From: Shinella lacus
Lineage (GTDB): Bacteria > Pseudomonadota > Alphaproteobacteria > Rhizobiales > Rhizobiaceae
NCBI RefSeq assembly: GCF_010994755.1
Contig: NZ_WHSB02000020.1
Location: forward strand, 1-64,000
DNA length: 64,000 nt
Reading direction: 5' to 3'
Positions 22,705-56,182 of the stretch are shown piece after piece; position 1 is the stretch's first letter; every line of letters starts with the position of its first letter. Under the pieces are notes generated by a model, which was not told where the DNA came from, ran no database searches, and was given only the letters and a program-made list of their open reading frames with translations. The translations under genes were made by a program, and so were the position numbers.

Positions 22705-22730
22705 GTTGGGCGGTGAAATACGCCCAAGTT

Positions 22731-22745
22731 TTGTGCGATGCACAA
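22731..22745. promoter_or_regulatory. Inverted repeat upstream of sigma-54 promoter
   Basis: TTGTGC-gat-GCACAA, perfect 6-bp arms, about 130 nt before the predicted sigma-54 start site, a typical distance for an enhancer-binding activator. It does not fit the NtrC or NifA consensus. Confidence 0.4.
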
Positions 22746-22842
22746 GAATTGGCCAGGATCGGAACAGGCTGCCGGCAACGGTGTTTGTTAGCTGCGCCTT
22801 TAGTAATATGAAATCATTTTTCTATTTTGCATCTCACTGACT

Positions 22843-22858
22843 TGGCACGCTTCCTGCT
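22843..22858 (+). promoter_or_regulatory. Sigma-54 (RpoN) promoter
   Basis: TGGCACG-cttc-CTGCT carries the invariant GG (22844-22845) and GC (22856-22857) with exactly ten bases between them and matches the rhizobial TGGCACG-N4-TTGC consensus except one base. No open gene starts nearby; a structured RNA element begins at the expected start site near 22869. Confidence 0.7.
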
Positions 22859-22868
22859 TCTCTCAGGC

Positions 22869-22982
22869 AGGTCCAGAGGGGACCGAGATAGAAGCGTCCA
22901 ACGAATGGCGCTCCGGTAAAGCCGCTGTGCAGCTTGATGAAAACCGTATGGTTTCGAAGCTGCCGGCGGCTTTCTTGTCTCT
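22869..22982 (+). ncRNA. Candidate sigma-54-dependent small RNA
   Basis: From the predicted start the sequence can form a 5' hairpin GGTCC-agagg-GGACC (22870-22884), a single-stranded middle, and a long 3' hairpin in which aaagccgctgtgcagctt (22918-22935) pairs with aagctgccggcggcttt (22957-22973), capped by an inner AAACC/GGTTT pair and followed by the U-rich tctt-gtct. This is the layout of a Rho-independently terminated small RNA of about 105-110 nt. No protein longer than a few residues is credible inside it. I do not recognise a known family. Confidence 0.5.
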
Positions 22983-23107
22983 GCCCATATGGTGCTGAAA
23001 AATATGATTTATTATATTTTTCTGTCTTAGCGCCTTGCCGATTGGCTTTTTTCAAAGGTTCCGCCACACTCGGCTGCGACAAGTTCAACATCTGGTGGTG
23101 CTGCGAC

Positions 23108-23155: not shown

Positions 23156-23178
23156 TATCTGCAAGGGTGGGGACGACA

Positions 23179-54475: not shown

Positions 54476-56182
54476 ATGTCCTACAGAATGTCCCGCGCCG
54501 CCTATGCCAACATGTTCGGCCCGACCACGGGCGACAAGGTGCGGCTTGCCGATACCGAGCTCTTCGCCGAGGTGGAGAAGGATTTCACCACCTATGGCGA
54601 CGAGGTTAAGTTCGGCGGCGGCAAGGTCATTCGCGATGGCATGGGCCAGAGCCAGGCGACGCGCGCCGAGGGCGCTGTCGATACCGTCATCACCAATGCG
54701 CTGATCATCGATCACAGCGGCATCTTCAAGGCCGATGTGGGCCTGAAGAACGGCCGCATCGCCGGGCTCGGCAAGGCCGGCAATCCGGATACGCAGCCGG
54801 GCGTCACCATCATCGTCGGCCCCTCAACGGAGGTGATCGCCGGCGAGGGGAAAATCCTGACGGCGGGCGGCATGGACGCCCACATCCACTATATCTGCCC
54901 GCAGCAGATCGACGAGGCGCTGGCAAGCGGCATCACCACAATGCTCGGCGGCGGCTCCGGCCCGGCGCATGGCACGCTCGCGACGACCTGCACGGGCGCG
55001 TGGCATATCGAGCGCATGATCGAAAGCTTCGATGCCTTCCCGATGAACCTCGCGCTTGCCGGCAAGGGCAATGCCTCGCTCCCCGCGCCCATCGAGGAGA
55101 TGGTAAAGGCCGGCGCCTCGTCGCTGAAGCTGCACGAGGACTGGGGCACGACGCCGGCGGCGATCGATTGCTGCCTGTCGGTTGCCGACGAATACGATGT
55201 GCAGGTGATGATCCACACGGACACGCTGAACGAAAGCGGCTTCGTCGAGGATACGATCGATGCCATCAAGGGCCGCACCATCCACGCGTTCCACACGGAG
55301 GGGGCGGGCGGCGGCCATGCGCCGGATATCATCAAGGTCTGCGGCCACGCCAACGTCATCCCGTCCTCGACCAATCCGACGCGGCCCTACACGGTCAACA
55401 CGATCGCCGAGCATCTCGACATGCTGATGGTCTGCCATCACCTGTCGTCGTCGATCCCGGAAGACATCGCCTTTGCCGAAAGCCGCATCCGCAAGGAGAC
55501 GATTGCGGCCGAAGACATCCTGCACGATATCGGCGCCTTCTCGATCATCTCTTCCGACAGCCAGGCGATGGGCCGTGTCGGGGAGGTGGCGATCCGCACC
55601 TGGCAGACCGCCGACAAGATGAAGCGCCAGCGCGGCAGGCTAGCTGGCGAGACGGGCGACAACGACAACCTGCGCATCCGCCGCTACATCGCGAAATACA
55701 CGATCAACCCGGCGATCGCCCAGGGCCTCAGCCACGAGATCGGCTCCATCGAGATCGGCAAGCGGGCGGACCTCGTTTTGTGGAACCCGGCCTTCTTCGG
55801 CGTGAAGCCGGACATGGTGCTTCTGGGCGGCACGATCACCATGGCGCCGATGGGCGATCCGAATGCCTCGATCCCGACGCCGCAGCCGGTGCATTACCGG
55901 CCGATGTTCGGCGCCTTCGGCAAGATGCGCACCAATTCCTCCGTCACCTTCGTCTCGCAGGCGGCGATCGATCTCGGCCTGCGCGAGCGCCTCGGCGTCG
56001 CCAAGCAACTGCTGCCGGTGCGCAACACGCGAAAAATCTCCAAGGCCTCGATGATCCTCAACGACCTGACGCCGCATATCGAGGTGGATCCTGAGACCTA
56101 CGAGGTAAGGGCGGATGGAGAATTGCTCACTTGCGAGCCCGCGACCGTGCTGCCGATGGCGCAGCGCTATTTCCTGTTCTAG
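54476..56182 (+). CDS. ureC: Urease alpha (catalytic) subunit UreC
   Basis: A 568-residue catalytic subunit hydrolysing urea at a dinickel centre. Visible are the nickel ligands in [11 protein letters not shown], the carbamylated-lysine site [41 protein letters not shown] and the active-site flap [22 protein letters not shown]. Complete, no missing key residue. Confidence 0.98.

Follow-up and report, generated by a model that had tools for sequence, protein, structure and literature searches.

The window analysed in this work, that is, the whole stretch of 64,000 nucleotides, belongs to a genome of the genus Shinella of 7.04 Mb in 53 contigs. The locus of a putative small RNA lies in it between the gene of a chemotaxis receptor and one of HlyD type, and the following features were recorded there (strand given where one applies):

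22722 to 22736: NtrC-like element, degenerate (GCCC-N7-GTGC; CGC-N11-GCG), overlapping the PhaR box; the pattern TGC-N11-GCA is enriched in promoters of the family
22729 to 22747: predicted PhaR (AniA) box TTTTGTGCGATGCACAAGA, with a score of 24.8 (seventh of 129 upstream regions) and a fit to the published consensus core
22843 to 22858, plus strand: sigma-54 promoter TGGCACG-N4-CTGCT; the box occurs in all 54 loci that were selected with a model of the RNA alone
22868 to 22980, plus strand: predicted small RNA, from a conserved block, a fold z-score of -5.0 and covariation; start at 22868/22869, end within the U-rich tail
22870 to 22884, plus strand: 5' hairpin GGUCC-AGAGG-GGACC, from fold and alignment
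22872 to 22882, plus strand: UCCAGAGGGGA, proposed AbcR-binding site, a perfect complement of UCCCCUCUGGA around the aSD2 motif of AbcR, from genome matches and accessibility scoring
22893 to 22912, plus strand: second hairpin, with its loop around CAACGAAU, from fold, alignment and covariation
22918 to 22973, plus strand: terminator hairpin with a long interrupted stem, followed by a U-rich tail to about 22980, from sequence, fold and covariation

The two halves of the promoter (TGGCACG at 22843-22849 and CTGCT at 22854-22858, four nucleotides apart) leave exactly 10 nt between GG (22844-45) and GC (22856-57), and differ by a single mismatch from the sigma-54 consensus TGGCACG-N4-TTGCW as quoted in PMC2573895. 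The predicted start at 22868/22869 falls directly 5' of the hairpin GGTCC-AGAGG-GGACC (22870-22884), and a GC-rich terminator with its U-rich tail closes a predicted RNA of about 113 nt. A sequence-only reading of this DNA had proposed these same elements and had added that the promoter serves no coding gene; all of them were found in place, and the next gene on the plus strand begins near 23167, beyond the terminator, where the gene varies among genera. That the transcript could be the leader or attenuator of a downstream gene, as the HlyD-type gene lying on the same strand might suggest, appears scarcely credible given that the unit is closed by its terminator and that the downstream genes differ from genus to genus.

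Since the promoter was left out of the covariance model R1, which was built from 22 RNA-only sequences, the RNA and the promoter each support the other. Upstream DNA was examined at 54 loci picked for diversity from the R1 list (152 genomes matched), and every one of them carries TGGCAY-N6-TGC with the GG-N10-GC spacing 23-26 nt upstream of the model start; the strict box lay at the right distance in 54/54 loci versus 0 of 10,800 mononucleotide shuffles of the upstream 60-mers. Folding of 22869-22982 gave -54.2 kcal/mol, whereas shuffles gave -35.9 (sd 3.7), a z-score of -5.0; none of the 200 shuffles was as low. The sequence-only reading had proposed a covariance search of homologous loci and would have given up its claim if no conserved pairing appeared there; two-sided compensatory changes keep the pairing at 25 of the 27 pairs among 100 aligned members, though fitting this alignment to the model biases it towards the structure; the unfitted alignment of 22 sequences gave 11/27 such pairs. 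In the 100-member alignment 92.9% of the cells are paired, and 98% in the nine pairs of the main terminator stem; shuffles reach 77.8% overall and slid structures 41-51%. Conservation and covariation strongly support the assignment of 22843-22980 as a sigma-54 promoter that would drive a structured, untranslated RNA, about 113 nt long and closed by a terminator of its own. A tiling-array survey of non-coding RNAs in R. etli, in the passages considered here, reports that none of its candidates is preceded by an RpoN site, and refers to a second survey with the same outcome.

A BLAST search with 22830-23000 matched 24 of 61 genomes, our own included, and these comprised 20/20 other members of the genus, 3/16 genomes from other genera of the family and 0/24 from other families. 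Within the genus most matches begin at query base 12-14, in the promoter, and stop near the terminator, those of L021 and L024 being shorter; 22 of the 24 rows entered alignment A2, L024 and L025 being left out. Model R1, built mostly from one genus, so that its count of genomes is a lower bound, matched at least 152 genomes among the 394 that represent the family, in 52 of 109 genera. Of 347 genomes from the order, a second model built from 100 members (R2) matched 51, and 37 of these belong to 11 families other than that of the window. From these 37 genomes 25 loci were taken, of which 16 pass a stricter test; L325 was unreadable and L337, L340, L348, L349 and L353 lacked the box, leaving 19 for analysis, some of which are close relatives of one another. 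These matches support the view that the RNA family extends beyond the Rhizobiaceae.

Two types of the RNA could be distinguished. A-type members (37/54 loci) carry CC(A/G)GAGGGG in the 5' hairpin, and B-type members (17/54) have a different 5' hairpin; the two types have hairpin 2 and the terminator stem in common, and the B-types, which lack the AbcR site, form the wider group. The A-type motif was absent from the 24 readable loci outside the family, and we infer that the B-type is ancestral and the A-type a derivative of the Rhizobiaceae. The genome of the window contains one copy of each, the A-type of the window and a B-type at L056:5002-5118 (G000:C24:356001-356117), the latter with a sigma-54 box and a PhaR-type palindrome and devoid of the AbcR complement. 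An A-type RNA with rhizobial neighbours also appeared in a contig labelled Arenimonas (L106, a gammaproteobacterial metagenome-assembled genome), which is probably mis-binned. Searches against Rfam 15 with the window region, 15 loci on the A-type side and 12 on the B-type side returned no family above the gathering cut-off for the RNA; weak matches to snoRNA, microRNA, P11 and narK families fell under the cut-off and were taken as chance. Elsewhere in the window, at 54631-54915 on the minus strand, Rfam recognised 5_ureB_sRNA (RF02514, 102.6 bits). We found no report of the B-type in the open-access literature searched.

Crude clusters of ORFs near the 80 A-type loci listed, out of at least 119, contained 44 LuxR-type ORFs upstream, 37 Mrp-type ORFs downstream and 21 CorA ORFs further down. 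Among these listed loci the downstream genes are most often Mrp and then CorA in Rhizobium and Sinorhizobium; in Shinella a chemotaxis receptor gene takes the upstream place of the LuxR-type gene. This order recalls SmelC165 of S. meliloti, described as a transcript of about 116 nt at 910182-910297 (+) with a predicted RpoN promoter (PMC7143759), which founds the model RFMSmelC165, Rhizobiaceae-wide, with complete microsynteny and both neighbours conserved (PMC3927594). In S. meliloti, SMc00877/878 are LuxR-type and SMc00861 lies at 927 kb; if the numbering runs downward, SMc00877 would be located near 910 kb. RFMSmelC165 would be expected between SMc00877 and Mrp, to be set against the order LuxR-sRNA-Mrp-CorA of the relatives. 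Judged by gene order, SmelC165 is probably the A-type member of S. meliloti. The sequence-only reading had not recognised the RNA, but its likely counterpart SmelC165 was already on record as a transcript with a predicted RpoN promoter, though with no function reported. The likeness comprises an intergenic position, expected beside SMc00877, the predicted RpoN promoter, the Rhizobiaceae-wide distribution and an interrupted terminal stem with a U tail. By contrast, A. tumefaciens C58 was reported to lack RFMSmelC165, while two records under the name A. tumefaciens (L110, L126) contain A-type members, and the passages on SmelC165 in PMC3927594 and PMC7143759 mention neither a B-type nor a PhaR box nor any connection to AbcR.

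The upstream region contains the inverted repeat TTGTGC-GAT-GCACAA (22731-22745, centred about -130), which the sequence-only reading took as the site of an enhancer-binding protein. The repeat is present, but it lies inside a sequence that fits better the PhaR/AniA box published for Bradyrhizobium and S. meliloti (TGCRNYGCASMA, WNWD2NYGCRNYGCRNH2WNW), and the same palindrome occurs beside phasin-like genes, so that a classical activator site at the repeat was given up in favour of a PhaR box. An activator may still bind close by, since the NtrC-like element overlaps this box. As to PhaR binding and its effect on transcription, the part of the published Table 3 covered here lists nothing near SMc00876/877. 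Once 26 of 155 upstream regions had been dropped as redundant, a motif search found TTTTGTGC-RNY-GCACAAAA in 66 of the remaining 129 versus 0.8 in shuffles, the motif having been trained on these same regions; outside the family, where no locus was used in training, the box was found at 11/19 loci with 0.15 expected. The palindrome lies mostly at -112 to -116 (30 cases) and -131 to -137 (13) from the promoter, distances that suggest a helical phasing without defining it sharply (R 0.53 for 10.5 bp and 0.54 for 11.5) in a set of related loci.

The genome of the window, which contains a phaR gene, has nine PhaR-type sites with up to two mismatches. One of them adjoins a phasin gene and two sit upstream of the two RNA copies, these two being the only ones with a sigma-54 box within reach. 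Among the other motifs scanned (NifA, NtrX, QseF, a DctD-like guess, NorR, PrpR-like, TacA-like and IHF) none was as strong as the PhaR box; the patterns for NtrX, TacA-like, IHF and PrpR-like exceeded shuffles in the upstream scan. PhaR-type palindromes were also seen in several genomes near genes judged by eye to be PAS-type sensor-like (L233, L234, L243, L245). The glnK promoter of Shinella (L247, L249-L267) has a sigma-54 box TGGCACGCCC(C/T)TTGAA in 19 genomes, and a weaker PhaR-like core stands 69 nt upstream of it in most but not all of the 19. This core might possibly provide a carbon-storage input to nitrogen sensing, and its presence there means that the combination is not unique to the RNA.

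The copy of the NtrC-like element in the window has one mismatch to GCAC-N7-GTGC. The pattern TGC-N11-GCA, an NtrC signature according to PMC10746234, was found in 48 of the 129 upstream regions (12.2 expected), although beside PhaR boxes it is ambiguous, since a similar spacing arises where PhaR boxes stand in tandem, as at phaP1, and the spacings N15, N16 and N0 were mildly enriched as well. Of the 56 loci that lack a PhaR box 17 showed the pattern (2.2 expected), as did 10 of the 19 loci outside the family (1.55 expected). On these sequence patterns NtrC is our leading guess for the activator.

The most conserved stretch of the RNA, in the A-type 5' hairpin, is complementary to the AbcR RNAs. 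In three Shinella genomes the 10-nt complement TCCCCTCTGG occurs 8, 6 and 11 times, three of these being the RNA itself, and 10 of the 22 non-self matches are genes of the Rfam ar15 (AbcR) family. In each of the three genomes two matches lie 213-214 nt apart, adjoining a LysR gene in G008, and these pairs are among the ar15 genes. With a loose pattern, which altered copies could escape, a match ending in GTTCCCCTCTGGA (the AbcR stretch) was found in 27 of 44 genomes; four genomes have the stretch and no R1 match, so that the stretch is not conserved because of the sponge candidate. Contained in this stretch is aSD2 (UUCCCCUC), one of the two motifs proven to serve AbcR1/2 in mRNA silencing, described as within an ultraconserved stretch and drawn single-stranded (PMC8844928). 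Complementarity to the seed region of the target sRNA, as looked for in a sponge, amounts here to 11 nt with the aSD2 region.

An accessibility-corrected score for ungapped helices selected the aSD2 site in 10/10 A-type:AbcR pairs from the same genome (-5.8 to -11.2 kcal/mol) and in 0/6 B-type:AbcR pairs. Shuffled sequences bound AbcR as well in 0-2 of 60 cases in eight of the ten genomes, and in 17 of 60 in the other two. In most pairs structure partly blocks the AbcR site as well as the 5' hairpin, at a cost of 5-7 kcal/mol each; full-length duplex energies gave no discrimination, although in most A-type pairs co-folding was more favourable than it was for shuffles. A-type variants with UCCGGAGGGGA retain the pairing through a G-U pair, and the pairing of 37/37 A-types follows partly by construction, the type being defined by the motif. 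A different partner was also considered, the sRNAs that we take to be NfeR1-like from their CTCCTCCCA...CGCCCGC pattern, which in seven genomes scored between 0 and -4.2 kcal/mol, with no gain over shuffles, and were discarded.

Most characterised trans-acting sRNAs act on mRNAs, and an ordinary sRNA of this kind, whose invariant AGAGGGG loop would pair with C-rich mRNA leaders while the AbcR match is coincidental or secondary, would agree with such typical action as well as with the 12 of 22 complementary matches that are not AbcR. None of these 12 was seen in a conserved mRNA leader in the three genomes, one recurring inside a hemE-like coding sequence, and the B-type RNAs retain a hairpin without the sequence, all of which renders this explanation unlikely. 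Alternatively, AbcR might be the regulator and the RNA its target, blocked or destabilised by the pairing, with the true function residing in the hairpins shared with the B-types. Both types do share hairpin 2 and the terminator stem, and the B-types, without an AbcR site, are more widespread; yet a stable structured RNA without a reading frame would gain little from translational silencing, and the complement resurfaces in another loop of the B-type L094 (G331), where UCCAGAGGGGA is found at RNA nucleotide 78, in the terminator loop and not in the 5' hairpin, as expected if capture of AbcR is useful. We consider this reversal of roles distinctly unlikely. That the RNA is a decoy for a protein, as GlmY and CrcZ are, and binds it through the purine-rich loops, seems very improbable: these loops are conserved and sigma-54 RNAs of such a kind are known, but a protein site would not be expected to complement 11 nt of a proven targeting motif exactly.

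Our preferred reading is that of a sponge for AbcR. An enhancer-binding protein, most likely NtrC, would activate the promoter under nitrogen limitation, and PhaR (AniA) would modulate it from the box near -130, so that the RNA would be produced during nitrogen shortage, while the cell stores carbon as polyhydroxybutyrate. The 5' hairpin of the A-type would then function as a target mimic, UCCAGAGGGGA pairing with the aSD2 of AbcR (UCCCCUCUGGA): its loop would meet the single-stranded aSD2 and open into an 11-bp duplex, and the sequestration of AbcR would release the uptake mRNAs that it silences. To the reading of the locus as a sigma-54 sRNA, modulated by PhaR, whose A-type sponges AbcR when nitrogen is scarce and carbon stored, we assign a probability of roughly 60%, the sponge action, the activator and the sign of the PhaR effect being the conjectural parts. 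The broader proposal, in which sigma-54 RNAs read by NtrC and PhaR are found in much of the Hyphomicrobiales, with a Rhizobiaceae branch that evolved the AbcR-sponging hairpin and an ancestral B-type with another partner, stands about evenly balanced.

If true, a nitrogen/carbon switch would disarm a master silencer of nutrient-uptake mRNAs through RNA-RNA capture, and a single RNA, present in many plant-associated bacteria, would connect nitrogen status with polymer storage and with the post-transcriptional control of uptake. The family is widespread and almost unstudied in rhizobia and their relatives. Regulatory RNAs with sigma-54 promoters, some of them decoys, are known in gammaproteobacteria (GlmY/GlmZ, CrcZ and Qrr); none of these has an Rfam match to the RNA of the window. 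AbcR1/AbcR2 (ar15, RF02345), the proposed partner, are different RNAs, not homologous to it by the Rfam search of the window. Their interactomes are reported to cover 6% of the protein genes of S. meliloti, and the authors of that study proposed AbcR sponges and named them as still to be sought (PMC8844928); we found no identified AbcR sponge in the open-access literature searched, and the RNA described here is a concrete candidate with pairing bases, promoter and likely nutrient signals. MmgR (alpha-r8) of S. meliloti is likewise an sRNA whose promoter contains a PhaR box, with AniA/PhaR as repressor and NtrC as activator, but it lies at another locus, measures 78 nt, has an anti-Shine-Dalgarno first loop and plays a role in polyhydroxybutyrate control (PMC7143759, PMC12542648). 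Sponge RNAs are a kind already known, and the nearest in kind is CrfA of Caulobacter, the sponge of SisA-D, likened here by description only. It responds to carbon starvation, and the text considered mentions none of AbcR, RpoN, NtrC or PhaR; like the RNA proposed here, it belongs to an alphaproteobacterium, and on starvation it renders a family of sibling sRNAs inactive (PMC12559287).
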